In this document: piece by piece, positions 19,993 to 52,034 of the stretch
Position numbering within the stretch: position 1 is the stretch's first letter
Layout: every line of letters starts with the position of its first letter
NCBI RefSeq assembly: GCF_019104945.1
Contig: NZ_JAHRWW010000051.1
Span: 1 to 52,034, forward strand
Length of the DNA stretch: 52,034 nucleotides
Direction of reading: 5' to 3'
Source of the DNA: Thermomonas sp.
Lineage (GTDB): Bacteria; Pseudomonadota; Gammaproteobacteria; Xanthomonadales; Xanthomonadaceae
Notes under the pieces: generated by a model
What the model was told of the DNA's origin: nothing
What the model saw: only the letters and a program-made list of their open reading frames with translations
The model's database searches: none
Program-made: the position numbers and the translations under genes

Positions 19993-20061
19993 GTTTGCGT
20001 ATGATCTTGGTGGTTTGTGCTAATTTCATGCCACGCAAGAAGCTTTTTAGGATCCCTTGTT

Positions 20062-29261: not shown

Positions 29262-29265
29262 TGCC

Positions 29266-30099: not shown

Positions 30100-30356
30100 T
30101 GGACGCCGCTACTCTCTTGCGCCGGTTTGGCAGTTCGCTGCGGGACGCCCGCAAGCGGCGCGGTTTGACGCAGGCTCAGTTGGCGGCCTTAGCTACCGTC
30201 CCGCGGCTTAAGGTAATTCAGGTTGAACGGGGCGATGCGTCGGTTTCGATTGGTGCCTACGCCGAAGTGGCCGCAGCACTGGGGTTGGAGTTCACGCCCG
30301 TGCCGGCACGCCGTCCCACGTTGGATGAGGTTGCGGAGCTATTGGCGAATGACTAA
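30099..30356 (+). CDS. hipB: HipB-like antitoxin, helix-turn-helix repressor
   Basis: An 85-residue Xre-type DNA-binding protein. The helix-turn-helix covers LRDARKRRGLTQAQLAALATVPRLKVIQVERG, with the usual TQAQLA start of helix 2. It would repress the operon and neutralise HipA. ATG 30099 is chosen because the upstream in-frame ATG (30060) lies within the promoter and operator. The last three codons overlap the start of hipA, implying coupled translation. Xre-type regulators of this size upstream of HipA kinases are standard. Confidence 0.9.
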   Translation: MDAATLLRRFGSSLRDARKRRGLTQAQLAALATVPRLKVIQVERGDASVSIGAYAEVAAALGLEFTPVPARRPTLDEVAELLAND

Positions 30357-31572: not shown

Positions 31573-31662
31573 TCAGCCCAATGGTCGAAGCTCACTTCAT
31601 CATAGTTATGGGTGTGTTTTTGTATTGCGGGTATCATCTGACCTTTGCCGACTTACCCCTCC

Positions 31663-33728: not shown

Positions 33729-36700
33729 ACGCGTGCACTTAGTGCAGTTCTTTTTGTTTGAAGCGCAAACACTAGAGCTTGATGCCACAAGCGCAGTGAT
33801 CGCGCCGAACGGTGCGGGTAAAAGCGCCTTGCTCGATGCACTGCAAATTGTGCTGCTAGGGGGTGATCGCTCGCGCATTCGCTTCAATGCGCAGGCGGGT
33901 GGTAGCGCGCGTGCGCGCTCGATTCGTGATTATTGTTTAGGGACATGGCGCAGCGGTGAAGAAGGGCGCAAGCGCCGTACCGCCACAACCTATATTTCGC
34001 TTGTGTTTCGCGATACAGAAACGCAAGCGCCACTATCAATAGGTATCGCATTAGGTGCGTCGCAAGACGAGCCCGATCATCGCGTGTATGGGCAATACGT
34101 GGCACCGGGTGTTGCGCTTGCGCTAGAAGACCACCTTGAACATAGCGAAGGGCGTGAACTGCCTTTGGCTTGGGCGGCCTTTCGTGATCGCCTAAGCCAA
34201 CGCTGTCGCGCCGCTGAAACAGGGCTGGAACTGCACGCCACTAGCGAACGCTTCGTCAAAGACGTGTTGTATCGCTTGCGCGCTACACCTTCGGCTCAGC
34301 CCGATGTAAATGCTTACCGCAAAGCGTTTTTGAATGCACTGAATTTGCAGCGTGTGGAAGATGTGGATTTGTTCGTGCGCACGCTGGTGGCAGAAGATCG
34401 CCCCACCGATATCGCGCGCTTCCGCGGTTTGCTGGAGACCTTCCGCCAGCTTAAAGAAAAGATTGAGCAGGTTGTTGCGCGCATCAGTGATGCTGAGGCG
34501 GTGGATGCGCAATACGAGAAAATTTCCCAGCAGGCGGCCCGCGCGGCCAGCTACCGTGCACTGGCGGCGGAATACGCTCGTGATCTGCTTTCAGAGCAAG
34601 TGGATGAAGCCGAAACACATTGCGAAAAAGCCCGCCAGCAGTTGGCCGATACACGGCGTGCACTGAGTGAAGCCAGCATTGAGCAGCAGTTGGCCGAAGA
34701 TGCGCTTGTGCAGGCGAATGCGCGTATGCAAAGCAGCCAAGGCTATGGCGAACAAGCGCAGCTAGATGAACTAAGCAACCGTGACCGCAGTGAGTTGGTG
34801 CGCATCAAGCGTGAGTTGATGCGGCAGATGCACGAGATCAACACGCAGTGGCAGGCCGTGGCGGCGCTGCAACTTGTACCCACGGAGATGCTGGAGCAAG
34901 CACAGTCGCTATGGCATAGCGAGCATGCACGCTTGGCAGAACTTGCCGAAGAGGCTGCATTGCCGTGGACGGCATCTAGCCTGCACGCGCAGGCGTTACA
35001 GGCGATCACGGCGGCGCAGGGTGTAATCAGCGCGGTACAGGTGCACGCCCGCACGCTGCATATGCGTGTTGAGGCGCTGCAGTCGCGTATCGAAACATCA
35101 CGGCAAAATCAAAAGCGCATTAGTGCAGGGCAGGCAGAATTAAGCCCTGATGCGATGCGTCTTTTGCATTATCTGCAAGAAGAGGGTATTGCCGCGCGGC
35201 CAGTGTGCGACTTGGTGCAAGTGCGCGACCCTGCGTGGCAGCCTGCAATCGAGGCTTATTTGCGCAGCAATATCGAGGCGCTGTTAGTGCCTGTAACCGA
35301 TGAAGCGCGCGCGGTAAAGCTGTATCGCTCGCTGAATGGTGGACGCAGTGTTTATGGTGTGAAGCTTGCGCTATCGAGCCATGCGCAGCGCGTGATTGGT
35401 CACGCCAAACCGGGCAGCGTAGCGACCTTGTTAGAAAGTGATAACGTCGATGCTCTGGCATTTTTACGCCAGCAGTTAGGTGAACTACGCTGCGTGGAGA
35501 GTGAGGCGGAGCTCATTCAAGCACGACAAGGACTTACGCGGGATGGTCTGTTGGCCAAAGGCGGCAGCATCGAGCGCAGACGCTTACCCGCAGCGGGCGA
35601 GCTAAAAATTGGCGCGAATGATAACCGCATGCGCCTACGCGTTCTGCGTGAAGAGTTAGAGCAGGCCGAGACCGAGCTGCGTACGTTAGAACCTGCACTG
35701 CGCAAGGCAGAGGCTTGCCAGCGTGGCTTGACGGCTTTGCTGGACCCGGCGCGTGTCGCTCAGGTGCTGCACGATAAAGTGCTGGAGCACCATCAGGTTG
35801 AACAGCGTTATCGCGAGGCGATGACCCAGCGTGAGCATGCGCTCAATCCTGACTTGATACGCCTTACCGAACAGCTGCAAGCACTAAACGAGCGCGTGGC
35901 CGCGTGCCGAAAGCTACGCGATGCGCTGCTGGGTAAAGTGGCTGTGGAAGAGGGGGCGGAGCAAGCCGCACTACGTTTGCTCGATGGCCTTCGCGGGCAG
36001 GAAGAGCTGGTGGCACGCCGTGCCGTGGATGCGTTCCGTGAGCCTGACGTGGACCCTAATCGGGTGGAACGCCTGCGCGACGAAATGGATCACAAATGGC
36101 CAGCATTGAAAGAGCGTGGCGACCGCTGCGACGAGCGTGCCAAAGACAGCGATAAGCAGCTTGACAATCTCAAGCCAGAGGCTTGGGGCCGGCTGATGCA
36201 ATACACCAAAGACCACGGGTTGGATGTGGACCTTGCCCCCGGCGATTGGCGTGCAGCGCGCAAGCTCATGGGGCGCGAACTGGCCCATCTGCGCGATTCG
36301 GAATTGGCCAATTACCAAGATCAGGCAGACCAAGCCTATACCACGGCAACGGAAACCTTCCGTAGCAACGTGGCATCGGCGTTGTTTGATAATTTCAGCA
36401 AGCTCAAATACCAGATCGGAACACTCAACCGCACGCTGCGCGCCAGCCCCGCGTTTTCCAATAACGAGCGCTATCAGTTTCATTATGAAGTTGCGCCGGA
36501 ATATCGCGAGCTGCACCGCTTCATTCTGCGTGTGGCCGATGTAGGCGGCGAGGACAATTTATTTGGCAGCGCGGGTGAAGTTCCGGCCGCATTTCGTGCA
36601 CTGATGGAAGATAGTGCTGCTGAGCGCGCAACGGCGTCGCCACTTGACGACTATCGCCGTTTCTTCCGTTTTGAAGTGCGGATCCATCACGATGATAAGG

Positions 36701-37131
36701 TCATTGGCAGTCTCAGCGAACGCATGCGCTCAGGCTCCGGTGGCGAACACCGCGCGCCGCTGTATGTGATCGCCGGTGCCGCCCTTGCGGCGGCCTACGG
36801 GAAAAATGAAGTGCAGCAGGGTGGAATGGGGCTGATCTTGCTGGATGAATTTGGCGACAAGATCGACGCGCAAAACGCCCGCGCGACTGTGGATTATCTG
36901 CGCTCACTTGGCCTGCAGCTTATTCTTGCCGCGCCGGATACCGCACAGGGCACGCTCTCTGGTGTGCTGGATAGTTATATCGAACTGTTCCGTGACGGCG
37001 ACCTGCTGCAGGTGGAACGTGTCGAGATGAGCCAAGCAGCACGTGACCTACTGTTAAGCGACCAATTCGATCTGCACCCTGAACTGCTGGCGGAAGAAGT
37101 GCAGCGGATCACAGCAGACGAGAAGGTGTAG
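33715..37131 (+). CDS. jetC: Wadjet/MksB-like JetC SMC ATPase
   Basis: An 1138-residue SMC-like ATPase. Walker A is APNGAGKS at residues 30-37, the signature motif GSGGEH is near 1007, and Walker B GLILLDEFGDKID begins near 1039. Between lie two long coiled-coil arms (about 290-480 and 640-960) with a hinge-like region around residues 490-640 that includes VRDPAWQPAIEAYL. The layout matches JetC/MksB rather than chromosomal Smc. ATG 33715 is chosen because GGAGG lies about eight bases upstream and the product begins MQLLERVHLVQFFLFEAQTL, as family members do. No jetD nuclease gene follows; the next gene is molybdenum cofactor related. Confidence 0.88.
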   Translation: MQLLERVHLVQFFLFEAQTLELDATSAVIAPNGAGKSALLDALQIVLLGGDRSRIRFNAQAGGSARARSIRDYCLGTWRSGEEGRKRRTATTYISLVFRDTETQAPLSIGIALGASQDEPDHRVYGQYVAPGVALALEDHLEHSEGRELPLAWAAFRDRLSQRCRAAETGLELHATSERFVKDVLYRLRATPSAQPDVNAYRKAFLNALNLQRVEDVDLFVRTLVAEDRPTDIARFRGLLETFRQLKEKIEQVVARISDAEAVDAQYEKISQQAARAASYRALAAEYARDLLSEQVDEAETHCEKARQQLADTRRALSEASIEQQLAEDALVQANARMQSSQGYGEQAQLDELSNRDRSELVRIKRELMRQMHEINTQWQAVAALQLVPTEMLEQAQSLWHSEHARLAELAEEAALPWTASSLHAQALQAITAAQGVISAVQVHARTLHMRVEALQSRIETSRQNQKRISAGQAELSPDAMRLLHYLQEEGIAARPVCDLVQVRDPAWQPAIEAYLRSNIEALLVPVTDEARAVKLYRSLNGGRSVYGVKLALSSHAQRVIGHAKPGSVATLLESDNVDALAFLRQQLGELRCVESEAELIQARQGLTRDGLLAKGGSIERRRLPAAGELKIGANDNRMRLRVLREELEQAETELRTLEPALRKAEACQRGLTALLDPARVAQVLHDKVLEHHQVEQRYREAMTQREHALNPDLIRLTEQLQALNERVAACRKLRDALLGKVAVEEGAEQAALRLLDGLRGQEELVARRAVDAFREPDVDPNRVERLRDEMDHKWPALKERGDRCDERAKDSDKQLDNLKPEAWGRLMQYTKDHGLDVDLAPGDWRAARKLMGRELAHLRDSELANYQDQADQAYTTATETFRSNVASALFDNFSKLKYQIGTLNRTLRASPAFSNNERYQFHYEVAPEYRELHRFILRVADVGGEDNLFGSAGEVPAAFRALMEDSAAERATASPLDDYRRFFRFEVRIHHDDKVIGSLSERMRSGSGGEHRAPLYVIAGAALAAAYGKNEVQQGGMGLILLDEFGDKIDAQNARATVDYLRSLGLQLILAAPDTAQGTLSGVLDSYIELFRDGDLLQVERVEMSQAARDLLLSDQFDLHPELLAEEVQRITADEKV

Positions 37132-38271: not shown

Positions 38272-38325
38272 TGCGCACCGGCATGGCTTAGACTTCAGCG
38301 AAAGCCATTGGGCAAGGTGAATACG

Positions 38326-39114
38326 ATGCGATATGGATTTTGTAGCGTGGTGTTGGCGGCGGTTCTTTCATTGGCGCTCGGGCCGTGCGTTGCAGCGCAA
38401 ACCAGCGCGCCCACCAAGCCAGCAGCGGTTGCTTCAGCGCGAGTGGCGGTGGCCGCTAATTTTGCCGATGTAGCTAAAGAGCTGGCGGCCGATTATTCGA
38501 AAAAAAGCGGTCATAAGATCAGTATTAGTTCTGCATCCACCGGCAAGCTCTATGCGCAGATCCGTAACGGAGCGCCGTTTGACGTGCTGCTCTCGGCCGA
38601 CGTGGCCACGCCGCAGCGTTTGGAGGATGAAGGGCTGGCTGACGGCACAACACATTACGACTACGCCCGTGGCCGCTTGGTGCTATGGAGCCGCGACCCA
38701 GCGCTAGTGAAAAACGGTGAAGCGCTGCTGCGTCATGGTGCAATGAGTAAGTTGGCTATCGCAAACCCGGAGCTGGCCCCTTACGGCGCAGCGGCCCGCG
38801 ATGTGCTGGAGTACGTGCGGCGCTGGAATGAGCTTCGGCCTAATTTAGTGATGGGGGAAAACGTTGGCCAAGCCACGCAGTTCGTTGTTACCGGTGCCGC
38901 ACCGCTGGGGCTGTTGCCACGTTCGCTGGTGATGCACGCCAATAAGATGCGGCAAGGCTCGGGTTGGGAGGTTCCAGCCAGCTGGCATTTGCCGATTACC
39001 CAAAGTGCGGTATTGCTAGAACGCGGAAAAACAAATCCGGCTGCGCGTGGGTTTATGCAGTACCTGCAAAGCCCAGCGGCGAAGCAGAAAATTCGCGCCA
39101 ACGGTTACGACTGA
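38326..39114 (+). CDS. modA: Molybdate ABC transporter, periplasmic binding protein
   Basis: A 262-residue periplasmic protein with a cleavable signal peptide (RYGFCSVVLAAVLSLALGPCVAAQ). Residues after about 40 match ModA: VAVAANFADVAKELAADYSKKSGHKISISSASTGKLYAQIRNGAPFDVLLSAD, which includes the serine contacts to the oxyanion. The later part shows GENVGQATQFVVTGAAPLGLLP. It captures molybdate or tungstate for ModBC. ATG 38326 is chosen because AAGGTGA lies seven bases upstream; the in-frame TTG 38308 is rejected. It is followed closely by modB. Confidence 0.96.
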   Translation: MRYGFCSVVLAAVLSLALGPCVAAQTSAPTKPAAVASARVAVAANFADVAKELAADYSKKSGHKISISSASTGKLYAQIRNGAPFDVLLSADVATPQRLEDEGLADGTTHYDYARGRLVLWSRDPALVKNGEALLRHGAMSKLAIANPELAPYGAAARDVLEYVRRWNELRPNLVMGENVGQATQFVVTGAAPLGLLPRSLVMHANKMRQGSGWEVPASWHLPITQSAVLLERGKTNPAARGFMQYLQSPAAKQKIRANGYD

Positions 39115-39120
39115 GGCACG

Positions 39121-39813
39121 ATGGAAGACGCAACCGCTTGGCCCGCGTGGTTGGCGGCAACTTGGGTAACGCTCAAGCTGGCAGGACTGACTACGATTAT
39201 TTTGCTGCTACTCGGCACGCCTCTGGCGTGGTGGTTGGCGCACACACGTTCGCGCTGGCGCATGCCGATTGGCGCAGTGGTGGCGCTGCCAATGGTGCTC
39301 CCCCCCACGGTGCTGGGGTTTTATCTGTTAATCGCATTTGCTCCCGAAGGCCCGGTAGGGCTGGTTGCCGATCGACTTGGGTTGGGCGGGCTGGCGTTTA
39401 CATTTCAAGGGCTGCTGGTGGCCTCGGTGCTGTATTCATTGCCCTTTGTCGTACATCCATTGCAGGCCGGTTTTTCGGGGGTTCCTAAACACGTGCTGGA
39501 AGCCGCTGCAACTTTGCGCGCTTCACCATTCGATAGATTTTTTAGCGTGGTACTGCCGCTGGTGCGGCCCTCGATCATTACGGCTACATTGCTGGGGTTT
39601 GCGCATACGGTGGGTGAATTTGGCGTGGTCTTGATGGTGGGCGGCAATATCGAAGGGCAAACCCGCGTGCTGTCGGTATTGCTGTACGACCAAGTGGAAA
39701 GTATGGCCTATGGCGAAGCACACCAGCTTGCAGCGGGCCTGCTGCTGTTCTCGTTTGCGCTGCTGCTATTGATGCAGTGGTTAGGGCGGCGCACGGCGGT
39801 GGGGCATGATTGA
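39121..39813 (+). CDS. modB: Molybdate ABC transporter, permease
   Basis: A 230-residue inner-membrane permease with about five to six transmembrane helices. ALPMVLPPTVLGFYLLIAF is the hallmark of ModB, and VLEAAATLRASPFDRFFSVVLPLVRPSI is the EAA loop that contacts ModC. The start lies six bases after the modA stop, and the end overlaps modC by eight bases. Length and organisation are standard. Confidence 0.96.
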   Translation: MEDATAWPAWLAATWVTLKLAGLTTIILLLLGTPLAWWLAHTRSRWRMPIGAVVALPMVLPPTVLGFYLLIAFAPEGPVGLVADRLGLGGLAFTFQGLLVASVLYSLPFVVHPLQAGFSGVPKHVLEAAATLRASPFDRFFSVVLPLVRPSIITATLLGFAHTVGEFGVVLMVGGNIEGQTRVLSVLLYDQVESMAYGEAHQLAAGLLLFSFALLLLMQWLGRRTAVGHD

Positions 39814-40870
39814 GGCGCTACACATCGCCCAGCGCGTGACACTAGGGGCCTTCAGCCTTGATGTAACACTTGATCTACCGGGGCGCGGTGTCAGCGCGAT
39901 ATTTGGCCCGTCTGGCTGCGGAAAAAGCACGCTCTTGCGTGCGCTGGCAGGGCTTGAGGCGAATACACAAGGGCGCGTGCATGTTGCAGGGCAGTGCTGG
40001 CAAGAGGCGCAGCAGCGCCTGCCTGCTCATCGGCGTAATGTAGGGATGGTGTTCCAGCACGCGGCGCTGCTTCCGCATTTAAGCGTAGAAGAGAATCTGC
40101 GCTATGGCTGGAAGCGCGCCAAGGTTGGGCATGACGTATTGGCACGCTGGGTCGCGCAGCTTGATCTTGCGCCGTTATTAGCGCGTAAACCTGCCTCGCT
40201 TTCCGGGGGGGAGCGACAGCGCGTTGCATTGGCACGCGCGCTGGTCTGCGCACCGCGCTTGCTATTACTTGATGAGCCGTTGAGCGCACTGGATGTGCAG
40301 CGCCGCACAGAGATTCTTCCTTATCTCGAAGCAATACGCAGTGCGGCAGAGATACCCATTCTCTATGTCACGCATGCGGTAGATGAAGTGGCGCGCTTGG
40401 CCGACCACTTGGTACTGTTGGAAGCAGGGCGCGTGCTGGCGGAAGGGCCCGCACTGGAGCTGCTTAACCGCCACGACCTGCCGCTTGCGCTGCGCGACGA
40501 CGCGGGTGTGGTGCTGGAGGCGCATGCACAAAGCCGCGATGCGCACGGGCTCATGACATTGCACACGCAGGCCGGAACACTGTATGCGCATGGGCCAGAG
40601 CACTCGCAAGGGGCAGCTTTGCGGGTGCGCATTTTGGCGCGTGATGTCAGCCTTGCCCTGCGCCGGCACGACGACACCAGTTTATTGAACGTGTTACCGG
40701 CCACGGTAATGGCTTTGGACGACATACATGGCGGGCAAGTGCAGGTACGCTTGGAGGCGCAGGGTTGCCCCCTGTTGGCGCGTATCTCGCACCGTTCGTT
40801 AGAACGCTTGCAGCTGCAGCCGGGGATGCAACTATGGGCGCAGATCAAAGCCGTTGCGCTGCTGGTATGA
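39806..40870 (+). CDS. modC: Molybdate ABC transporter, ATP-binding protein
   Basis: A 354-residue ATPase that energises ModB. Motifs in order are Walker A FGPSGCGKSTLL, the Q-loop MVFQHAALLPHLSV, signature LSGGERQRVALARAL, Walker B LLLLDEPLSALD and the switch histidine in YVTHAVDEV. The C-terminal 110 residues form a Mop-like molybdate-binding domain (VLPATVMALDDIHGGQVQVRLEAQGCPLLARIS) that can inhibit transport when molybdate is plentiful. It starts within the end of modB. Confidence 0.97.
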   Translation: MIEALHIAQRVTLGAFSLDVTLDLPGRGVSAIFGPSGCGKSTLLRALAGLEANTQGRVHVAGQCWQEAQQRLPAHRRNVGMVFQHAALLPHLSVEENLRYGWKRAKVGHDVLARWVAQLDLAPLLARKPASLSGGERQRVALARALVCAPRLLLLDEPLSALDVQRRTEILPYLEAIRSAAEIPILYVTHAVDEVARLADHLVLLEAGRVLAEGPALELLNRHDLPLALRDDAGVVLEAHAQSRDAHGLMTLHTQAGTLYAHGPEHSQGAALRVRILARDVSLALRRHDDTSLLNVLPATVMALDDIHGGQVQVRLEAQGCPLLARISHRSLERLQLQPGMQLWAQIKAVALLV

Positions 40871-40948: not shown

Positions 40949-42007
40949 ATGCCACGGTTTTTGGGTTACGTGCGTACTTCTACCGAAACCCTATCACCGG
41001 GTTATTTCAGTATGGTCATGGCCACCGGCATCATGTCGCTTGCGGCCCATTTGATGGGGCCTGCGTGGCTGGCTATTGCGCTCTTGGTGCTGAACTGGCT
41101 GCTGTTTATCAGTATTGGCGCTCTTGCTTTGGCGCATTTGCACTGGCACCCAAAACGCGTGCTGGCCGATTTGTTTAGCCACCACACCGCGCCGGGTTTT
41201 TTTACTTTTGTTGCGGCCTGTTCCATTTTGGGAAGCCAAAGTCTCTTGATCGGCCGCAGCCTGCCGATGGCCGTGATGCTTGCCGGGGTGGCGCTGCTGG
41301 CGTGGGTGGTGATTACCTACACCATTTTTACCGTGCTCACGGTGAAGCGCGAGAAGCCAACGCTTGATAAAGGTATCAACGGAGGCTGGCTGCTGGCGGT
41401 GGTATCAACCCAGGCGATGGCGGTCATTGCGGCGTTGATTTCGCAATATGTAGATCAGCCACTACGTCTTGAAATGAATTTCTTCGCGCTCTCCATGTGG
41501 CTATGGGGCGGGATGCTTTATATCTGGCTGATGTCACTGATCTTCTATCGCTATACGTTTTTTGAACTGTCACCCGCCGATCTGTCGCCGCCGTATTGGA
41601 TCAATATGGGGGCGATGGCGATCTCGACATTGGCGGGATCGCTGCTGATCGTCAACGCGCCACACGCGCCTTTCTTGCAGTCGCTACTGCCGTTTATCAA
41701 AGGCTTTACTGTGTTCTATTGGGCCACGGGGACATGGTGGATCCCGATGCTAGTGGTACTGGCCATTTGGCGTCACGGCGTGCGCCGTTTTCCTTTCACC
41801 TATGACCCGATGTACTGGGGTGCAGTGTTTCCGCTGGGCATGTATGCGGTAAGCACGCTGCGCATGATGCACGCGATGCAATTACCTTTTCTCGGAAAAC
41901 TTCCGCAGGTGATGTTTACGGTTGGGCTCACCGCATGGGGGCTGCTCTTTATTGGCCAGCTGCGCGCGCTGCGGCGGCATTGGCTGGCCTCTGATCGCAG
42001 CGTGTGA
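40949..42007 (+). CDS. TDT-family (TehA/Mae1/SLAC1-like) transporter
   Basis: A 352-residue inner-membrane protein with about ten transmembrane helices, of the tellurite-resistance/dicarboxylate transporter family. LSPGYFSMVMATGIMSLAAHLMG is the N-terminal signature of these channel-like proteins, and the region FTFVAACSILGSQSLL follows it. Characterised relatives move malate or sulfite, or act as anion channels; an anion role near molybdate genes is plausible but unproven. A strong AGGGGAG site lies five bases before the ATG. It is separated from modC by about 80 bases holding its own regulatory box. Confidence 0.85.
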   Translation: MPRFLGYVRTSTETLSPGYFSMVMATGIMSLAAHLMGPAWLAIALLVLNWLLFISIGALALAHLHWHPKRVLADLFSHHTAPGFFTFVAACSILGSQSLLIGRSLPMAVMLAGVALLAWVVITYTIFTVLTVKREKPTLDKGINGGWLLAVVSTQAMAVIAALISQYVDQPLRLEMNFFALSMWLWGGMLYIWLMSLIFYRYTFFELSPADLSPPYWINMGAMAISTLAGSLLIVNAPHAPFLQSLLPFIKGFTVFYWATGTWWIPMLVVLAIWRHGVRRFPFTYDPMYWGAVFPLGMYAVSTLRMMHAMQLPFLGKLPQVMFTVGLTAWGLLFIGQLRALRRHWLASDRSV

Positions 42008-42075: not shown

Positions 42076-44958
42076 TTAGAACTTCAGATTGAGCTGAAGG
42101 TATGAGAAACGGCTGGGTAAGTCGTAGGTGGCTGCATCGTAACCATTCAACGAGCACGACAAGCAAATAGGCGGTGCTTTGTTGAATAGGTTATTGATGC
42201 CAGCGGTTACGCTTAGGTTCAACGCAATGGGCAGTTTCCAGCTGGCGCGAATATCGCTATAGGTAACGGCAGACAGATAGTTCGTGCCACCTGGGCGGTC
42301 CGCGGTCACCTCGCTGGGGTTGCTGCAGATGGGGTAGCCCGAAGCTGCGGCGCAGTCTTCGCGCAGGCCGCTGATGTAGCGCAGCTTGTAATCCACATTC
42401 CAAGCGCCGCGCTGCCAGCCTAGGCTAAGGTTAGAAGCCCAGCTTGGGATAGCACTGTTGGTGACTTCAATACCTACCGCACGCGGCTCAAGGTTACCGG
42501 TTTCATTTTTGGCTTCATAGCGAATCACGTGCGTGCCTTGGAGACCTGCAGTGAATTGGCCAATAGCCGTTTCTGGGCCGCGCCATTGCACGCCAATATC
42601 GTAGCCGCTGGTTTCCACTTGCCCTAAGTTCTGCAAGGTGTTGTTGAAACCGTCGATATTGCCGGTGGCATTGCGATGGATGCCAACACAGTAGGGTGAG
42701 GTCAAGCTGCCGCTATCCACGCAGCGGTTGAGCTGGGTTTGTGCGTCGGGGGCCAAGATGGCCTGTTTGATATTGATCTTGTAGTAGCCAAAGGTGAAGT
42801 CCAGTTTGCTCGACCAAGCCACATTTTCTGCCCAACTGGGGCTATAGACAGCGCCCCAAGTGAGGCTGCGTGATTCCTCCGGCTTCAGTGCCACATTGCC
42901 GCCGGTACGCACCGAGATTTGTGGGTTTGGCTGCGAGTAGCTGGCCGGGATGCCCATTGCAGCGCAGTTTGCGGCAGTTTGTGTGTTCGCAATCGGCGCA
43001 GAGCATGGGTCTTGCAGCGTGGCGTCAAAGCGTGCCGGAGAGCCAAACACTTCGCCAATCGATGGTGCACGGAAGCCCTCTGCCCAAGTGCCGCGCAGGG
43101 TTAGATCGTCCACGATCTGCCAGCGTAAGCCGTACTTGTTATTCGTGGCAGAACCAAAGGTTGAGTAGTCCGAATACCGTGTGGCCACCGATAGATCGAG
43201 CGCTTTGAATGCAGGAACATCGCGCAGCAGCGGTGCGTTGAGTTCAACGTAATATTCGTTGATGGAATAGCGGCCCGATGTGGGCAGCGATGGTACACCG
43301 TTCGACTCACCCGCAACGACGACTGCATCAGGTTCATAAGAGCCCGTGTAGTTGCGATGCTCGTAGCCGGTAGCAAAGCTCAGAGGGCCAGCTGGTAGAT
43401 CAAACAATTCGCCGGTGAGGTTGGCCGTCCATAGGCGAATGGTGTTTTCGCTGCGATCGTGCTCGGTGTATTGAATGTAGTTGAGCATCTCCGGTGTAAT
43501 TGAACCGGGGCCACCAAATAAATTCAGCGGAACACAGGGCGCTGTGCAGTTGGCAACGGGGCCTAAGGCGCGCTGAATATGGGCGATGTTGTAAGTGCCG
43601 CGTACTGTTTGTGTGGCGCGGTTATTGCCGCTGGCAAAGTTGACGTCCCAATAAAAATTGCGGGTGCCAATGCCAAAAGAGCCTTGTAAGCCGGTACCGA
43701 AATAGAAGGTATCCACGTCTTGCGAATATTGGCGTGGCCCACCTTCCACCGGACGGCGGCCGATCATGATGAGATTACCCGTGGATGGGTCGGCGTCTAG
43801 CGTATAGCCAAAGGGGTTGTAAGGGTTGGTGACATCCACCCCCACGCTGTCGGCCAAGCTGCCGGTGCCTGCACCGGGGCCGAGGAAGATGGGCTCGGGG
43901 GCCGCTTGGTTCATCGATGTGCGGCGGTTATACAAGCCGCGCACATACCAAGTAGTGTTGGCGGTGATGTTGTAGTCCACTTGGGCAAACACCGATTTGC
44001 GTTCGCTCGGTGTAAGTAGCAGGTTGAACGGAGCAAAATTGAAACGGTCGGCGCTGGTGAAGGGGTGGAAGTCCGCGGGATACTGCGCGGTGCCTGTGAT
44101 TGGGCCATTGAGCGTAACGCTGTGGTAATTGCCCAATGGGTCGTTGAACATAAAACGCCCGGTAGGTGTTGCCGAGCTGCAGTTATCAAGGCCCGTACCC
44201 GGCACGCATTCCGCGCCCGCCTGCGCCCAGTCACCGGAGCTGATGGCGTCTTGTTTGACGTAGCCGAAATCCACGAAGAAGTTGTAGCGATCACCCTTCG
44301 CACCAAACGACAGATCGGCGTTCTTAGTGTCGCCGCCATTGCGGTTGTTGTAATTGCCGAAATAAACGCTGGCTGCACCGCCGTCCTGCGACTTCTTGGT
44401 GATGATGTTGACCACGCCGGCAATGGCGTCGGAACCGTAAAGCGCAGAAGCACCGTCTTGCAGCACTTCAATACGGTCGATGATGCCCACCGGAATGGTA
44501 TTCATATCTACGGCGGCAGAGACACCAGAGGCCGAGCTTTCGTTTACCCAGCGGATGCCATCAACGAGGATCAAGACGCGCTTGGCGCCAAGGTTGCGAA
44601 GATCGAGCGTCGAAGACCCCGAGCCTACGCCGCTGCCGTCGGGCGGAAAGCCGAAGTTACCAGCCGAGTTGAACTTGGTGTTGAGCGAAGAGCCGGACGA
44701 AGACAGTTGTTTCAGGATGTCACCAATACTGGTGAGCCCGGCGCGCTGAATGTCGGCCGAGTTCATGGTGAGGATGGGTACTTGGGTGGCTACTTCGGCG
44801 CTTTTGATGCGCGATCCGGTCACCATCACTTTATCGAGTGTCGTGGCTTTTTGCGGCGGGGCTGCGGCTTCTTGAGCGAAGGTAGGTGCTGTTGCGATAG
44901 ATGTAATGACGCACGCGATGGCAGCTGCCAAAGCGCGGTGGCGTAACGCGTTGTTCAT
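42076..44958 (-). CDS. TonB-dependent outer-membrane receptor
   Basis: A 960-residue outer-membrane receptor. A signal peptide ([30 protein letters not shown]) precedes the TonB box-like segment [11 protein letters not shown]. The plug domain follows, with [20 protein letters not shown] and [27 protein letters not shown]. The rest is a beta-barrel ending in [10 protein letters not shown] with a terminal aromatic, as needed for BAM insertion. The substrate cannot be deduced; xanthomonads have many such receptors, often for carbohydrates or peptides. ATG 44958 has GGGGA upstream and is preferred over a longer frame starting at 44994. It diverges from the molybdenum-related gene pair. Confidence 0.9.
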
Positions 44959-45018
44959 TGGTTTCCCCAGAGCTGTTGATTGAGTGACCTGCATCCAGCT
45001 CCCCTCAGCTGGCGGTTA

Positions 45019-45069: not shown

Positions 45070-45083
45070 TTGACTCAAATCAA
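45070..45083 (+). promoter_or_regulatory. FNR/Anr-type box at -41.5 of the molybdenum receptor promoter
   Basis: TTGAC-TCAA-ATCAA matches the FNR consensus at nine of ten fixed positions. With the -10 hexamer TATCAT at 45106-45111, the start site is 45118 and the box centre is exactly -41.5, the class II activation position. The -35 region is otherwise poor, as expected for an FNR-dependent promoter. Confidence 0.6.
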
Positions 45084-45105
45084 AAACACGGCAACGTGTT
45101 ATTTC

Positions 45106-45111
45106 TATCAT
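45106..45111 (+). promoter_or_regulatory. -10 element of the molybdenum receptor promoter
   Basis: TATCAT, five of six to consensus, places transcription start near 45118, within the ModE-type operator and 33 bases before the ATG at 45151. Confidence 0.5.
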
Positions 45112-45116
45112 TTCTT

Positions 45117-45140
45117 CGCTATGAGCCTAACTATATAACG
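45117..45140 (+). promoter_or_regulatory. ModE-type operator
   Basis: CGCTAT, twelve bases and ATAACG (with TATATAACG at the right side) reproduce the length and ends of the known E. coli modA operator, CGTTAT-N12-ATAACG, as I recall it. The site covers the predicted start point and abuts the AAGGA ribosome site, so molybdate-bound ModE should block expression. modE itself lies 2.6 kb downstream. Confidence 0.7.
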
Positions 45141-45150
45141 AAGGAAAATT

Positions 45151-45720
45151 ATGAAATTTCAAATGCTTGCATTGAGTTCTCTGTTGCTTTTGGGGGGCGC
45201 GCCGGTGGTGTTTGCGGCAAACCCTGCGGCGCATCACGTGGCCACTCCGGCGGCGAAGGACTTGGCCAAGGTCAACCCAAGCTATCAGTTGCGGGTGAGT
45301 GGGGCGGTGAAAACACAAAAGACCTTCAACGTGGCGGCGCTCAAGCAGCTCACTGCGCGCAACAGCGGGCCGATGGATGTGGTCTGCGCGTCTGGGCAGG
45401 TGAAGGACAAGGCCAATAACTATCGCGGCGTGCTGCTCACCGACGTGCTGGATGCAGCGGTCATCGACCAGAAGGCACACAAAGACGACCGCCGGATGGT
45501 GATCGTGGCGCGCGCCACCGACGGCTACACCGTTACCTTCTCGTGGAGCGAGCTGTACAACTCTGAGATCGGTAAGCAGGTGCTGGTGGCTTGGGAGAAA
45601 GACGGCAAGCCGCTGAGCGTGGGTGAAGGGCAGATGCTGCTGATTTCTGGCAAAGACATCAAAACTGGGCCGCGTCATGTACCCAATTTGAGCGCGCTTG
45701 AAGTTGTGCGGATGAAATAA
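45151..45720 (+). CDS. Periplasmic sulfite-oxidase-fold (molybdopterin-binding-like) protein
   Basis: A 189-residue exported protein with a signal peptide (KFQMLALSSLLLLGGAPVVFA). The mature part resembles the oxidoreductase molybdopterin-binding domain (PF00174 type): YQLRVSGAVKTQKTFNVAALKQLTARNSG, a cysteine at residue 79 in VVCASGQ at the position used for molybdenum ligation in that fold, and NYRGVLLTDVLDAA and GPRHVPNLSALEV. It is about half the length of full enzymes such as YedY and has no Tat twin-arginine motif, so it is probably not a complete enzyme. It lies five bases before a TonB receptor gene, under a ModE-type operator, and might be a molybdenum-compound binding partner of that receptor. 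Confidence 0.8.
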   Translation: MKFQMLALSSLLLLGGAPVVFAANPAAHHVATPAAKDLAKVNPSYQLRVSGAVKTQKTFNVAALKQLTARNSGPMDVVCASGQVKDKANNYRGVLLTDVLDAAVIDQKAHKDDRRMVIVARATDGYTVTFSWSELYNSEIGKQVLVAWEKDGKPLSVGEGQMLLISGKDIKTGPRHVPNLSALEVVRMK

Positions 45721-45725
45721 CGCTG

Positions 45726-47744
45726 ATGAAAAACTCCCCCACATTTTTCCGCCATGCGCTGGCGGTAGCGCTTGCGTCTGTCATTTCATTTTCGGTACAG
45801 GCCGCGCCGCCCGCAGCCAAGACAACGCTGGATAAAGACGGCGTGTTTCAGCTGGGCAGTGTCGTGGCGCAAGGCAAGCGTGATGGCCTTGCGGCATTGG
45901 GCGAAGTGATCGTGTCGCGCGAACAGCTCGATACACTCAACCGCGAAACGCTGGGCGAAGCGGTAGCCACGGCACCGAGCGTGAACCTTTCAAACAACAG
46001 CCGCAATGAGGCGACGGTGTACGTGCGGGGCTTTGATCCGCGCCAAGTGCCGGTGTTTCTAGACGGCATTCCGCAGTATGTTCCGTATGACGGCTATATC
46101 GATTTTGGCCGTTTCACCACGTTTGATCTTGCCCAAGTTCGTGTGGCCAAGGGTGCTGCGTCATTGCTCTACGGGCCGAACACGCTAGGTGGCGCGGTCA
46201 ATCTAATTTCGCGCAAGCCCACGCAGCCGCTGGAGGGTGATGTGCGCGTGGGTGTAGGGAGTGGCGGCGAGCGCAAGGTTGCGGCCAATATCGGGATGCG
46301 CAACGGCCAGTGGTATGTGCAGGCGGGGTTATCGTGGCTTGATGCCGATAGCTTTCCGCTTCCTAGTGGGTTCAAAGATTACAAGGCCAGCCCAACCGAT
46401 ACCGGTGATCAACGCGAAAATGCGTATCGTAATGATCGCCGTGCGTCGATCAAAATTGGTTTCGAGCCAAATGCACGCAGTGAGTTTGCCCTAGGCTATG
46501 TGAAGCAGGAGGGCGAGAAGGGCAACCCCGTGTACACCGGGCGCTCGAAGAGTGGCGTGCGTTATTGGCGCTGGCCGTGGTGGGATAAAGAAAGCGTGTA
46601 CTTCATTGGCAATATGGGGCTAGGGGAAGCCAATAGTCTGAAGCTACGCGCTTATGAAGACCGCTATGGCAATGGTCTGCAGGCATATACCAATGGCAGT
46701 TACAGCACGGAATTACTCACCACCAGTTTCCCTAGTGTGTATGCCGATAAAACGCGCGGACTGAGCCTAGAGTTAGCCAGCCAAGTGTTTGCCAACCACG
46801 ATCTGCATGCAGCGCTGCACTATAAGGACGACCGGCATAGTGATTTAAACCCGAAGTCGCCGGTGAAACAGTATCGCGATGTCACCACCACGCTTGCGCT
46901 GGAAGATAGCATCACGCTTGGCGCTGGCTATGGCCTGCGCGTGGGCGGCAGCCACGAGCAGCGGGATGCGAAGGAAGTATATTTCTGGCCGGTGGGGAAG
47001 ACCTCAGCCAATAACGCATTGATTGAGCTGACGCGTGACTTTGGCGATGCGGGTTTGCTGTTTGCCAGTGCTTCGCACAAGACCCGGTTTCCCACCATCA
47101 AAGACCGTTATTCAGCGCGCATGGGGCGAGCATTGCCCAACCCTGATTTGAAGCCAGAGGTTGCGCGTCATCTTGAGATGGGCTGGCGCGGCCAGCCGTG
47201 GAGTGGGGCGCAGTTGGAAGGCTCGCTGTTTTACAGCCGTATTGATGATTTGATCCAAGATGCGATCGTCGCTTCCACCGAATGCGGCAGCAGTGTTTGC
47301 GACCAGGCCCAGAATATCGGGAAAGCGCGCCACCGAGGGTTTGAGCTGGCACTGCAGCAACGCTTAGGCGAGCAAGGACAGTTGGGGCTGACCTATACAT
47401 GGATGGATCGGGATAACTTGCTGCAGCCCGACGTGCGTCTTACCAATAGCCCAAGTCAGCGTCTGTTTGCGCATGCGCAGTGGGTGTTCGCACCGCAGTT
47501 CAAAGCGGTAGCTACGCTGGAGAGTGAGCGCGGCCGTGTGGTTCCGGTGTCCATTACAGGTCAGCCGCCCTACCTTACCTTGCGCGGGTTTACCGTGTTG
47601 GGGCTGAAGGGCGTATGGACGCCCATCACTCAGGTTGATGTGGAAGTGGGTGGGCGCAACCTAACCGACAAGTGGTACGAACTTGCCGAAGGCTACCCGA
47701 TGCCGGGCCGCAGTTGGTTTGCCAATGTGATTTATCGGTTCTAA
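45726..47744 (+). CDS. TonB-dependent receptor, predicted molybdenum-related
   Basis: A 672-residue outer-membrane receptor with signal peptide (NSPTFFRHALAVALASVISFSVQA). The plug shows ETLGEAVATAPSVNLSNNSRNEATVYVRGFDPRQVPVFLDGIPQYVPYDG and VRVAKGAASLLYGPNTLGGAVNLISRKP, both typical. The barrel ends in SWFANVIYRF. It is shorter than the other receptor in this window and belongs to a different subgroup. It shares an operon with the sulfite-oxidase-fold gene, under a ModE-type operator and FNR-type box, and modE follows convergently. Import of molybdate or an organic molybdenum complex is the best guess from context, not from the sequence. Confidence 0.88.
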   Translation: MKNSPTFFRHALAVALASVISFSVQAAPPAAKTTLDKDGVFQLGSVVAQGKRDGLAALGEVIVSREQLDTLNRETLGEAVATAPSVNLSNNSRNEATVYVRGFDPRQVPVFLDGIPQYVPYDGYIDFGRFTTFDLAQVRVAKGAASLLYGPNTLGGAVNLISRKPTQPLEGDVRVGVGSGGERKVAANIGMRNGQWYVQAGLSWLDADSFPLPSGFKDYKASPTDTGDQRENAYRNDRRASIKIGFEPNARSEFALGYVKQEGEKGNPVYTGRSKSGVRYWRWPWWDKESVYFIGNMGLGEANSLKLRAYEDRYGNGLQAYTNGSYSTELLTTSFPSVYADKTRGLSLELASQVFANHDLHAALHYKDDRHSDLNPKSPVKQYRDVTTTLALEDSITLGAGYGLRVGGSHEQRDAKEVYFWPVGKTSANNALIELTRDFGDAGLLFASASHKTRFPTIKDRYSARMGRALPNPDLKPEVARHLEMGWRGQPWSGAQLEGSLFYSRIDDLIQDAIVASTECGSSVCDQAQNIGKARHRGFELALQQRLGEQGQLGLTYTWMDRDNLLQPDVRLTNSPSQRLFAHAQWVFAPQFKAVATLESERGRVVPVSITGQPPYLTLRGFTVLGLKGVWTPITQVDVEVGGRNLTDKWYELAEGYPMPGRSWFANVIYRF

Positions 47745-47784: not shown

Positions 47785-48579
47785 TTAAACGGCAACCGCC
47801 AAGATAACGTGCGAGGCTTTTACAAGCGCCTGCAAAGGGGTGCCAATCTCGATGCCCAGTGTCGCGGCGCTATCGTTGGTGACCGTGGCCACGAGGCGTT
47901 TTCCTCCGGCAAGCGCAAGTTCAACTTCTGAGTTGACTGCGCCGGTGTGGCAGGCGGTGACGCTTCCTTTCAACACGTTGCGGGCGCTGGTGCGCAGACT
48001 AGTGTCTGCGGTAAGTATGACGAAAGAAGATTTCACCAACCCAACCGCGCTACTGCCAACGCGTAGCCCGAGCTCATCGACACTATGGTTAGTAATAATC
48101 GCGGTGAGCGTGTCGCCACCTGCAATTTCCAATACCACTTCACTATTCACCGCGCCGCGCTGAAGTGTGCGAACTGTGCCTTCGTATTGGTTGCGCGCGC
48201 TGGTTTTAAGCATGAGGTTACCTAAGCGTTTAAGGATCTGTTCGAGATCGTGCGCTTCGTTTGTACTGCCCGCAAGCAAGCGTTGCTGCAAGGTGGTCAG
48301 TGCCTGATGAAACGCCAATACGCGCCGCCCCATCTCGGTGAGGCGCGCGCCGCCGCCGCCGCTGCCGCCTGTTTCCGCACTGACTAGCGGCTCGCCCACA
48401 AAGGTGTTCAGCGCAGCAATGGCATCCCACGCGCCCTTATAACTCATACCCACTGCACGCGCGGCGGCGCTGATGGAGCCATGCGCGTCTAGTGCCTGCA
48501 GCAAACGCGCACGCTGCGGGGTTAGGCTTGTGCCTGCACCGCGTAGGTCGATGAGGGGTTCTAGCGAAGGGGCAGGCAT
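47785..48579 (-). CDS. modE: Molybdate-responsive transcription regulator ModE
   Basis: A 264-residue regulator. The N-terminal winged helix-turn-helix shows LTPQRARLLQALDAHGSISAAARAVGMSYKGAWDAI and the linker ETGGSGGGGARLTEMGRRVLAF, both hallmarks of ModE. Two Mop repeats follow (TSARNQYEGTVRTLQRGAVNSEVVLEI and TSARNVLKGSVTACHTGAVNSEVELAL), the molybdate-binding module. It would repress or activate molybdenum genes when molybdate is bound. ATG 48579 is preferred, and an in-frame TTG at 48594 is possible. A matching operator lies upstream of the neighbouring receptor operon. Confidence 0.96.
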   Translation of the reverse strand: MPAPSLEPLIDLRGAGTSLTPQRARLLQALDAHGSISAAARAVGMSYKGAWDAIAALNTFVGEPLVSAETGGSGGGGARLTEMGRRVLAFHQALTTLQQRLLAGSTNEAHDLEQILKRLGNLMLKTSARNQYEGTVRTLQRGAVNSEVVLEIAGGDTLTAIITNHSVDELGLRVGSSAVGLVKSSFVILTADTSLRTSARNVLKGSVTACHTGAVNSEVELALAGGKRLVATVTNDSAATLGIEIGTPLQALVKASHVILAVAV

Positions 48580-48656
48580 GGCGTTGCCGTCCAAGCATTC
48601 AACAACCTATTACAGTAGTCTGAAATACACCTGCTACGCCATCTTTTCTGCATTGG

Positions 48657-50309
48657 TCAGAATTGATACACCGCTTGCGCCCAAAGCCGTGGGCTTTTGT
48701 CCTCGTCAGATTCGGGTTCACCGGTGCCTGCTTTCCAAGCAGCAAACACTTGCACGCTGAACGGGTGAAACACGTAGCTCAGGCCCACGCCATAACCAGC
48801 AAGGCGGCGGTGGTTGCTGGCGGCTGGCCCCCACGGCGCTTGGTTGATGCGCACGCGGCCTGCGTCATAAAACCCAAATGCGTCGATGCGTTCGGCAACG
48901 CTATGCCGTAGTTCAACGCTTGTAATGTAACCGTTATCGCCGCTGGCCTCGCCCTGCGGATAGGCGCGCACGCCGGTGCTGCCACCAAGCAGTAGTTTTT
49001 CAGAAGAATCCAGATTTTTATCTGCCCACTGCGCGTTAGCGTTCAGGGTCAGCAGCCAGTTTTGGGGAAGGCGCTGCAGGCGCTGGTAGTCAAGCGACCA
49101 TTTGCTGAACTGCCCGCTGCTGTGCGCGGTAAATTGGTCGATAAACGCACTGACGGCGTCCATGCCCAAGCGGCCCTGAGTGTAGTTCAGCAGAATGCGG
49201 TTGCTGGCACCGCCTGCCAATGTGTCGATGATGTCGCCACGGATGCCCAGCGTTGCGTTGTGCAGGGTTTTTCTGCTTTGCAAATGCACAATGCCAATAT
49301 CGTCGTGCAGGTGTTTGTCGTCGAATTGCGCGTTCACATACCAGCTTGCCCGCCTACCGCGCAGCAGCGGCTGTTGCACATAAAAACTGCCAATGGAGGC
49401 GCTGCCGTTGGCGTCAAGCACGTCAAACGCTTTACCTAACTTGTAGCGCATGGCCGACCAAGCAACGCCTATGCGCGTGGCCCACGGCCCAATGGGCAAT
49501 TGGTAGCCAATGCGTCCGTAGCGAAAATCGCTGGCGTTGGCCTGTGCGCGCAGGCTGAGCTGGTCGCCCAGCTTGGCCGGGTTGTTCCAATACAGGCTGG
49601 CGCCAATGCGCTCTGCGCCTACGAAGCGGTTGCCGAAGTTGTCCACGTCCACTTCGCCAGTGAATGCAGCGCTGGGCTCTAGTTCCACAAGAAAATCGGA
49701 GCTTCCCACGCTGGCACCGGGGCGCAGCGTCGATTTCACTTCAACGCCGGGTAAATCAGACAGGCGCAGCAGCGCATCTTCCATCTGTTGACGGTTAACG
49801 GCGTCGCCCGTTTGCAGGCGGTGAAGCGGCGCAGTGGCCGTACTGGCCGTACCGGTGTTGTCGTGCAATGTAATTTCGCCAAGGTGCCCTTCAAGAATGG
49901 CAATGGTCACAACGCCTTCGCTCACGTCCTGCGGCGGCAGGTAGGCGCGGGCCACCAAGTAGCCGTGGTTGCGGTAGTAACGGGTGATGCGTGCGGCTAG
50001 GTTGTCCAGGTCGGTGAGCGTCATGCTTGGCTGAATGTCGCCTGCAATCAGCGCGCTGAGTGTGGTGGAAGAAAATGCGCTGTTGCCGGTGATCTGGACG
50101 TTTCGAACGGTAATAGGTTCGTTGCTTGCTGCCGCTTGTTTGGTGGGTTCCTCTACCGTTGTTTCTTTTGCCGTGGCTGAAGGCGGTGGCGGCGGTGGGG
50201 CGGTTTGCTGAAGCAGTTGCCCTGCCGTAGGCTGCGACTGCGCAAACGCCACGGCAGGGGCCAGCAGTAGCCCTGCCAGCAGGTACGGTGTTGTTGTTTT
50301 AATGGTCAT
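48657..50309 (-). CDS. Two-partner secretion outer-membrane transporter TpsB (ShlB/FhaC/HecB family)
   Basis: A 550-residue Omp85-type transporter. The signal peptide (TIKTTTPYLLAGLLLAPAVAFAQ) is followed by a proline-rich linker, POTRA domains (about 65-205; VRNVQITGNSAF and YLVARAYLPPQDVSEGVVTIAILEGHLGEI) and a 16-strand barrel. Barrel hallmarks are VDNFGNRFVGAERIGASLYWNNP and the conserved-loop-like segment LLLGGSTGVRAYPQGEASGDNG, and the protein ends in AVYQF. It would export the TpsA protein encoded directly upstream; its ATG follows the tpsA TAA without a gap, so translation is coupled. Confidence 0.94.
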   Translation of the reverse strand: MTIKTTTPYLLAGLLLAPAVAFAQSQPTAGQLLQQTAPPPPPPSATAKETTVEEPTKQAAASNEPITVRNVQITGNSAFSSTTLSALIAGDIQPSMTLTDLDNLAARITRYYRNHGYLVARAYLPPQDVSEGVVTIAILEGHLGEITLHDNTGTASTATAPLHRLQTGDAVNRQQMEDALLRLSDLPGVEVKSTLRPGASVGSSDFLVELEPSAAFTGEVDVDNFGNRFVGAERIGASLYWNNPAKLGDQLSLRAQANASDFRYGRIGYQLPIGPWATRIGVAWSAMRYKLGKAFDVLDANGSASIGSFYVQQPLLRGRRASWYVNAQFDDKHLHDDIGIVHLQSRKTLHNATLGIRGDIIDTLAGGASNRILLNYTQGRLGMDAVSAFIDQFTAHSSGQFSKWSLDYQRLQRLPQNWLLTLNANAQWADKNLDSSEKLLLGGSTGVRAYPQGEASGDNGYITSVELRHSVAERIDAFGFYDAGRVRINQAPWGPAASNHRRLAGYGVGLSYVFHPFSVQVFAAWKAGTGEPESDEDKSPRLWAQAVYQF

Positions 50310-52034
50310 TTAGCGGCAGTCTTGAATAAGTTGGACAGGAAGGTGTTGGCCGCATTGCAGCACCGCAATGTCGGGGGCCGTATGCGCTTGGCGCGCAACG
50401 GTGTCTTTGACTTGGGTATTGGCCGAGTTAGCGGCGGCGGCGTAGGTTGCGCCGTAGGTGTCGGCTGCGCTGTTGAAAATACTGGCGGTGGCCGTGGGGG
50501 CATTGGCCCAGTCGATGCGGTAGTTCAGGCGGTCATTGCCGGTTAGCGCCATCTCGTTGAGCACCACTTGTTTCAGGTGGCCAATATCGGCACTGGTAAA
50601 CGCAGCGCTCCAGTGGGTACCCACATTGTCGTTTGCCACGATACCCGCCAGCGCCAACGTGCTGTCGGTTATCTCGGCATCCGTAGTGCCGTCGAATAGT
50701 TTGTCGGCCACGTTGAAGCTGCCATCAATGGTGAGCACTTTTTGCAGAATGGTGCTGTGGGTGTTGTTGAGATAGGTGATGACGTAATTGCCGCCGTTGT
50801 TGCCGTCGTTTACCGTTACGCCGCCTACCGTCACGGTCTTGTTGGTGCCTGCGTTTTTGTCGGTAAAGGCGAAGCTGCCACCGCTGAGGCTGTCGTTGCC
50901 AAACAGCTGCCCGTCGGCCAGCAACAGCGCACCGTCGGCGGTGGTGGTGCCGTCGTAGGTTTTGGTGATGTCGCTGGTGGTTAGCGTGATGGCGGCAGGG
51001 TTGATAAGAAGGCTGCCATCCACATAAGTCAGGTTGTAGTTGGCGGCGCTGCCACCGCTGACCGTATGGGCATAGGTGCCTGCATTGGTGCCGCTGCCGC
51101 CGGTTTCCACAAGGCCGGTGATGACGCTGGTTGCATCGCCGGGCACCAAGCCGGTGATGCTGTAGCCGGTGATGGCTTGCAGCAGGCCGTTGTAGGTCAA
51201 CGTGCCGCTGTTGGCGGTGATGACGGCGTTGGCCTTGGCGATGTTGAGCGTGCCGTCTTTGTAGGTGATGACGTAATTGCCACTGGAAAGGCCGCTGGCA
51301 ATCAAACTATAAATGCCCGCGTTGACGGCGTTTTGGCTGCTGCCGCCCCATGTCAGGGTGCCGGAGAGCACATTGAAGTCTTCGCCATTGACGAAGCCGC
51401 TGTAGCTCACGCCGTTGCCGCCCGTCCACGCGAGGCCGTCGTAGGTTTTGCTGGCGTCGTTGGCGGTAATGGTCAGCGTGGCGGGGTTGATGGTGAGCGC
51501 GCCGGGGACGTAGGTCAGGGTGTAGTTAGCGGCGCTGCCGCCGCTCACCGTATGGGCATAGATGCCTGCGTTGGTGCCGCTGCCGCCGGTTTCTACAAGG
51601 CCGGTGATGACGCTGGCGTTTTCGCCATTGACCAAGCCGGTGATGCTGTAGCCGGTGATGGCTTGCAGTAGGCCGTTGTAGGTCAATGTGCCGCTGTTGG
51701 CGGTGATGACGGCGTTGGCTTTAGCGATGTTGAGCGTGCCGTCTTGGTAGGTGATGACGTAGTTGCCGCTGGAAAGGCCGCTGGCGATGAGGCTGTACAC
51801 ACCTGCGTTGACCGCACCTTGGCTGCTTCCGCTCCAAGTGAGCGTACCGGACAGCACGTTGTAGTCTTCGCCGTTGACGAAGCCGCTGTACGTCACACCG
51901 TTGCCGCCCGTCCACGCGAGGCCGTCGTAGATCTTGCTGGCATCGTTGGCGGTGATGGTGAGCGCTGCGGGGTTGATGGTCAGGCTGGTGGTGGGGCTGT
52001 AGGTGATCTCGTAGCCGAGTTGGCCGGAATACAG
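50310..52034 (-). CDS. Large MBG/YDG-repeat TpsA exoprotein, C-terminal part
   Basis: The minus strand is open from the stop at 50310 to the window edge, giving the last 574 residues of a larger secreted protein. It consists of repeated MBG-type domains (YNGLLQAITGYSITGLV and VITANSGTLTYNG, each twice) and YDG-type domains (KTYDGTTTADGALLLADGQL). This architecture is typical of filamentous haemagglutinin-like two-partner exoproteins. The C-terminal 70 residues after TATASIFNSAADTYG lack repeats. No N-terminal secretion domain is visible because the gene is cut. Adhesion or biofilm function is likely from the family. It lies immediately upstream of its TpsB transporter. Confidence 0.85.
   Translation of the reverse strand: MYSGQLGYEITYSPTTSLTINPAALTITANDASKIYDGLAWTGGNGVTYSGFVNGEDYNVLSGTLTWSGSSQGAVNAGVYSLIASGLSSGNYVITYQDGTLNIAKANAVITANSGTLTYNGLLQAITGYSITGLVNGENASVITGLVETGGSGTNAGIYAHTVSGGSAANYTLTYVPGALTINPATLTITANDASKTYDGLAWTGGNGVSYSGFVNGEDFNVLSGTLTWGGSSQNAVNAGIYSLIASGLSSGNYVITYKDGTLNIAKANAVITANSGTLTYNGLLQAITGYSITGLVPGDATSVITGLVETGGSGTNAGTYAHTVSGGSAANYNLTYVDGSLLINPAAITLTTSDITKTYDGTTTADGALLLADGQLFGNDSLSGGSFAFTDKNAGTNKTVTVGGVTVNDGNNGGNYVITYLNNTHSTILQKVLTIDGSFNVADKLFDGTTDAEITDSTLALAGIVANDNVGTHWSAAFTSADIGHLKQVVLNEMALTGNDRLNYRIDWANAPTATASIFNSAADTYGATYAAAANSANTQVKDTVARQAHTAPDIAVLQCGQHLPVQLIQDCR
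51030..52000. repeat. Tandem 486-bp direct repeat within the tpsA gene
   Basis: Two near-identical copies with a period of 486 bases (162 codons) lie head to tail. Matching landmarks are exactly 486 bases apart, for example GATGTTGAGCGTGCCGTC near 51240 and 51726, and CTGCCGCCGGTTTC near 51093 and 51579. Differences are scattered single bases. Copy number may change by recombination, and more copies may continue beyond the window. Confidence 0.8.

Follow-up and report, generated by a model that had tools for sequence, protein, structure and literature searches.

A candidate FNR- and ModE-responsive promoter ahead of a putative molybdenum-uptake operon in Thermomonas sp.

The PTB locus and its proteins

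The window (the whole analysed stretch of Thermomonas sp. DNA, 52,034 nucleotides) contains genes for a molybdate ABC transporter and a SLAC1-type anion transporter. These are followed by PTB, encoding a small exported protein, TBDR2, encoding a TonB-dependent receptor, and a modE gene on the opposite strand (Table 1). PTB and TBDR2 presumably share one operon.

Table 1. Genes and promoter elements of the PTB locus in the window
Feature	Position	Strand	Remarks
modA, modB, modC (molybdate ABC transporter)	38308-40870	+	profile matches
Second FNR-type box, TTGATTTCAGTCAA	40878-40891	+	before the SLAC1 gene; no ModE box
SLAC1/Tdt-family anion transporter	40949-42007	+	profile matches
FNR/Anr-type box, TTGACTCAAATCAA	45070-45083	+	9/10 to TTGAT-N4-ATCAA
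-10-like hexamer, TATCAT	45106-45111	+	read from sequence
ModE-type operator, CGCTATGAGCCTAACTATATAACG	45117-45140	.	motif match and conservation
Inferred transcription start (+1)	45118	+	deduced from the -10-like hexamer
PTB start codon	45151	+	
PTB	45151-45720	+	189 aa; exported lone Oxidored_molyb (SUOX-fold, PF00174) protein; conserved Cys79
TBDR2	45726-47744	+	TonB-dependent receptor, 672 aa; begins 5 nt past PTB
ModE	47785-48594	-	HTH_1 and two TOBE domains above Pfam cut-offs; Mop above its cut-off

The N-terminus of PTB is signal-like and lacks a twin arginine. The window protein has no Tat signal; among the 20 listed N-termini, those of the pair L010 and L019 start with adjacent arginines, as judged by eye. 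A sequence search of PTB against the PDB returned weak matches (best 0.0045). The predicted structural model has a mean pLDDT of 80.6, and its best solved match is PruR (7kom, E 9.8e-08, TM 0.78 by target length), followed by enzymes of the sulfite oxidase family. PruR, a periplasmic pterin-binding protein (PDB 7kom, 7kos), is like PTB a small exported lone SUOX-fold protein. The two differ at the Mo-ligating position and in their partners: PruR has Trp in place of the Cys and works with DcpA/DTB (available text of PMC13259868), whereas PTB keeps Cys79 and sits with a TonB receptor and modE. Membership of PTB in PruR was rejected on the retained cysteine and on the presence of TBDR2 and modE instead of dcpA/DTB. 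Cys79 is nearly invariant across 48 aligned PTB proteins; in a weak profile alignment (probability 32%) it pairs with Cys146 of MsrP, which we take to be a Mo ligand. PTB is uncommon, being found in 13/395 genomes of the family and 5/233 of a sister family (E 1e-25).

TBDR2 has Plug (PF07715) and barrel (PF00593) domains above the Pfam cut-offs; among the matches listed (25 of 34), no NCBIfam receptor model reaches its cut-off. The same two domains are found in TonB-dependent receptors for metal chelates, while the neighbourhood of TBDR2 points to molybdenum. A second, divergent TonB receptor gene lies between SLAC1 and PTB (42076-44994, minus strand); it is present in the window only and absent from the syntenic loci L024-L028. 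Because the start of this gene is turned towards the FNR box, the box may act in both directions.

The ModE protein of the window scores below the cut-offs of the NCBIfam ModE models; its gene lies 2.6 kb from the promoter. Elsewhere in the genome lie genes for two FNR-type proteins that have the Fe-S cysteines and an ETVSR motif; these genes adjoin HemN-like and CcoN-like frames (all by eye). For both, the best NCBIfam match is Fnr, at 176 and 218 bits; the cut-off of 228 is not reached. The genome also encodes a NarG-like molybdoenzyme, as a frame of 1269 aa reads as NarG.

The promoter and its conservation

The FNR box, the -10 TATCAT and the ModE-type palindrome were all found where a sequence-only reading of this DNA had placed them. 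That reading set the centre of the box at -41.5. The arithmetic is correct, as the centre falls at 45076.5, provided that transcription starts at 45118; this start is deduced from the hexamer, whose place is partly conserved among homologues. On the same numbering the operator core would cover about -1 to +23. The operator CGCTATGAGCCTAACTATATAACG is an imperfect palindrome, with 5/6 positions paired in the outer arms, or 7/8 when the TT/AA flanks are counted; its middle has no symmetry. It shares with the ModE operator of E. coli modABC the 24-base layout CGNTAT-N12-ATANCG, and both lie just before a start codon. Scored as a 28-mer against the E. coli consensus ATCGNTATATA-N6-TATATANCGAT (as printed in the available part of PMC545781), the window operator reaches 15/22; on this yardstick the best site before E. 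coli modA reaches 16/22.

The core CGNTAT-N12-ATANCG is found once in the window against 0.00 expected from 100 shuffles. The 26-mer TCGNTAT-N12-ATANCGA has a single exact match in the 2.69-Mb genome (95% complete), and nowhere else in these 2.69 Mb is the operator core matched exactly. With up to one mismatch the 26-mer has 4 places in the genome versus 5 for the reversed control, and the 24-mer, which is looser, has 30 versus 23. The FNR box taken alone is weaker evidence. The observation is nevertheless firm because the elements are conserved before homologous genes.

This conservation, on which the sequence-only reading had staked its claim, was checked upstream of PTB homologues. Forty loci were compared; 20 were dropped as repeats over the first 200 bases of match, leaving 20 distinct upstream regions, the window included. 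These regions share a common descent, and one genome contributed two of them (L010 and L019). A ModE operator (at least 13/22) is present in 18/20, centred 21-25 bases ahead of the presumed start codon. An FNR box (at least 7/10) with its centre 47-54 bp from the operator, a range fixed after the first loci had been inspected, is present in 17/20, all of which carry both elements. Within the 18 operator-bearing regions the box scores at least 8/10 in 16 and at least 9/10 in 10. Dinucleotide shuffling predicts 0.27, 0.03 and 0.0 regions at 7/10, 8/10 and 9/10; real background predicts 0.37-0.43 at 7/10 and 0.07-0.08 at 8/10. A chance origin of the paired boxes was thus ruled out against both shuffles and real background. 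The exceptions are L009, which has the operator without the FNR box, and L024 and L122, which have neither; in L024 the coding frame seems to start within the preceding SLAC1 gene.

In the 17 regions with both boxes, pairwise identity is 82-93% in the box arms and 29-30% in the spacer and flanks; since the regions were picked by box match, part of this contrast arises by construction. The flank identity gives the extent to which the DNA has drifted apart. At the -10 place the hexamer is kept less strictly, with A at the second position in 11/17 and T at the last in 13/17, and a pairwise identity of 41% versus 30% for the spacer. By eye, it stays about 21-23 nt past the FNR box. The distance from operator to FNR box falls into two groups, 47-50 bp (8 regions) and 52-54 bp (9 regions). 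A nearly constant gap between box and hexamer combined with two operator spacings makes FNR look tied to the polymerase, while for ModE an overlap with the start region would be enough. The two spacings would fit activation by FNR together with steric repression by ModE. Overall, the reading of the promoter holds up, and its conservation is good.

Related loci in Lysobacterales and Bacteroidota

The genes behind the promoter, about which the sequence-only reading was silent, are the larger and more interesting finding. Fifteen named loci (L024-L038) are of the Lysobacterales type, and 12 of them are assessable downstream of PTB (L036-L038 end too soon). A modE gene lies near PTB, on its downstream side, in 11/12 (L024-L034); L035 has TBDR2 without modE. 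TBDR2 is complete in 8/12, a fragment in L031, and missing from L024, L028 and L034. The modABC genes lie upstream in 8/15 (L024-L028 and L035-L037); they were not found within 4.6-6 kb upstream in L030-L034, and the upstream sequence of L029 and L038 is short. The full order modA-modB-modC-SLAC1-PTB-TBDR2-modE, with modE on the minus strand, is shared by the window and L025-L027, which include Thermomonas sp. S9 (L026) and Thermomonas beijingensis (L027).

The FNR box before the SLAC1 gene scores at least 8/10 in the window, L024-L028, L036 and L037, always without a ModE box; it is absent in L038, where SLAC1 is split over two frames. No ModE box was found within about 160 bp before modA in seven loci and the window (best score at most 12/22). 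This differs from E. coli, where the ModE operator precedes modABC itself; here the operator precedes an operon with an outer-membrane receptor and is combined with an FNR box, and the local modABC genes have no such box.

By their record titles, most of the remaining 61 named loci (L039-L099) belong to Bacteroidota. Of these loci, 51 have 4 kb or more of sequence ahead of PTB; a gene with a ModE-type HTH is present in 40 of the 51 (none in the other 11/51), a receptor homologous to TBDR2 in 31, and both in 29. The gene between ModE and PTB in L043 and L088 is another TonB receptor (2/2 tested). ModE, receptor and PTB thus recur together in other loci, mostly Bacteroidota, so the association is not local. 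Flavobacterium johnsoniae CI04 (L073) carries ModE, box, receptor and PTB in this order, then FtsX-, UppP- and TruB-type genes; the ModE protein has 115 aa, consists of the HTH only and scores below the model's cut-off.

The palindrome CRNTAT-N12-ATANYG, which shares its layout with the operator of the window, lies at most 350 bp before the receptor in 28/33 loci, a count which is descriptive because this looser pattern was picked after the matches had been viewed. Elsewhere in these loci, from which the background was taken, it occurs 15 times in 382,577 bases; eight of these sites are just before modE and six soon after a modE gene. The Bacteroidota boxes are hard to find with the E. coli 28-mer, on which they score 11-15 of 22. 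An FNR partner for these boxes, sought over 14 positions, scores at least 7/10 in 19/42 and at least 8/10 in 5/42; this is a count without a control, and no FNR box is claimed for Bacteroidota.

Two loci have other arrangements. In L067 (5400-6435) no receptor gene separates the ModE-HTH gene and the palindrome from PTB, which suggests that PTB can work where no TonB receptor adjoins it. In L080 (597-6480) the ModE-receptor-PTB cassette comes after ThiF/MoeB-type, MoaE and MoaC genes, which ties the cassette to cofactor synthesis.

Proposed regulatory logic, alternatives and known systems

The segment before PTB is probably a dual-input promoter, responding to FNR and ModE, of an operon for molybdenum uptake at the cell envelope, and it would be active at low oxygen combined with low molybdate. 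When oxygen is absent, an FNR/Anr protein with its Fe-S cluster would bind at about -41.5 and, by class II activation, recruit RNA polymerase. With ample molybdate, the ModE-molybdate complex would occupy the start region and block the promoter. TBDR2 would import a molybdenum species through the outer membrane; in the periplasm, exported PTB would receive it and hand it towards ModABC. We infer binding, the direction of regulation, the substrate and the hand-over from sequence. PTB may also act without TBDR2, because some loci lack TBDR2 and no receptor accompanies ModE, box and PTB in L067. The sequence-only reading had predicted expression only without oxygen and with scarce molybdate. The conserved elements, the encoded ModE and FNR-type proteins and the NarG-like enzyme all support this prediction; 'only' is too strong, because basal expression and other inputs are not to be judged from sequence.

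We read the whole as a molybdenum-repressed outer-membrane uptake module which appears to have been placed under FNR control in Lysobacterales. More tentatively, and with the balance tipped slightly against it, the loci may represent an undescribed TonB-dependent system for molybdenum uptake across the outer membrane, common to Pseudomonadota and Bacteroidota. Its defining parts would be a TonB receptor, a ModE box and a PruR-like periplasmic protein that carries the Cys. This protein would capture molybdenum in a form that may be Mo-pterin or a different Mo chelate instead of free molybdate. In Lysobacterales the system would have been joined to the anaerobic FNR programme.

The promoter logic may be right and the operon have another purpose: PTB could be a PruR-like periplasmic protein for signalling or redox work that depends on a pterin or a cofactor, and the receptor could import a pterin or a different compound required under molybdenum shortage. 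The pterin-binding PruR is after all the best solved structural match of PTB, and PTB is found under ModE-type boxes without any receptor (L067) and without TBDR2 (L028, L034). We consider this unlikely, though worth keeping in mind, as PruR has Trp for the Mo-ligating Cys that PTB keeps, and sits with dcpA or DTB genes (available text of PMC13259868), while the neighbours of PTB are modE, a TonB receptor and often modABC.

An NO-responsive regulator as the reader of the box at -41.5 is less probable again. Regulators of the Dnr/Nnr type read very similar boxes, and Dnr and Anr of P. aeruginosa share their target promoters (available text of PMC9769707). Against such a reader in place of an oxygen-sensing FNR, a PF13545 search of the genome (95% complete) gave four places: two FNR-like proteins with Fe-S cysteines, one CRP-like protein and one short match that looks Lrp-like by eye; on these matches a cysteine-free Dnr-type reader was thought unlikely. 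That the FNR box is a chance match and ModE the sole regulator seems very improbable indeed. Single FNR-like boxes are common, with nine (at most one mismatch) in the window versus 3.5 expected, and L009 has the operator with no FNR box; however, the box stands at 47-54 bp in 17 of the 18 operator regions against the 0.27 expected, and reaches at least 9/10 in ten of them against 0.0, even though the spacing range was set post hoc.

Joint FNR and ModE control, as preferred here, has parallels. In E. coli the dmsABC and moaABCDE promoters receive both FNR and ModE input, so that oxygen and molybdate signals are joined at one promoter, as would be the case before PTB. The E. coli targets serve a molybdoenzyme and cofactor synthesis, whereas here an uptake operon of the envelope would be controlled, and the operator would lie on top of the start. 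Molybdate is a scarce oxyanion, and unspecific porins are usually credited with its passage across the outer membrane. In P. aeruginosa, Anr and Dnr drive the T6SS-ModA-IcmP molybdate system (available text of PMC9769707 and PMC8602904). This is an envelope-level molybdate route linked to anaerobic regulators, and the need it meets is comparable; it uses secreted ModA and outer-membrane IcmP, whereas the work here would fall to a TonB receptor and its SUOX-fold partner, controlled by ModE. ModE sites at other targets are described in the available parts of PMC2700814 and PMC9542535, the latter also covering TonB siderophore receptors under VnfA1 in Azotobacter; the available part of PMC7759655 contains no mention of TonB. 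Among the papers listed by a literature search, judged mostly by titles and the first lines of abstracts, none described a ModE-controlled TonB receptor. Dual FNR/ModE control is therefore known in kind from E. coli, and an outer-membrane target and a module spanning two phyla were not found described. If the reading is true, a TonB receptor controlled by ModE and served by its own periplasmic partner, recurring in two phyla, would amount to a specific and energised route for molybdenum. It would also explain how a nitrate-respiring bacterium supplies its molybdoenzymes once oxygen runs out.

The window has further features of its own. An FNR-type box, TTGATATCCATCAA, lies at 280-293, just before a PAS-HAMP-MCP frame (334-2625) which perhaps encodes an aerotaxis-like receptor under anaerobic control. 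The region between alaS and moeB (20017-37131) holds defence-type genes: HsdM, HsdS and HsdR (type I restriction), GmrSD, HipA and a Wadjet-like set starting with JetA. On the minus strand at 48657-51896, an ShlB-type transporter lies beside an MBG/YDG-repeat protein, and the two resemble a two-partner-secretion pair.
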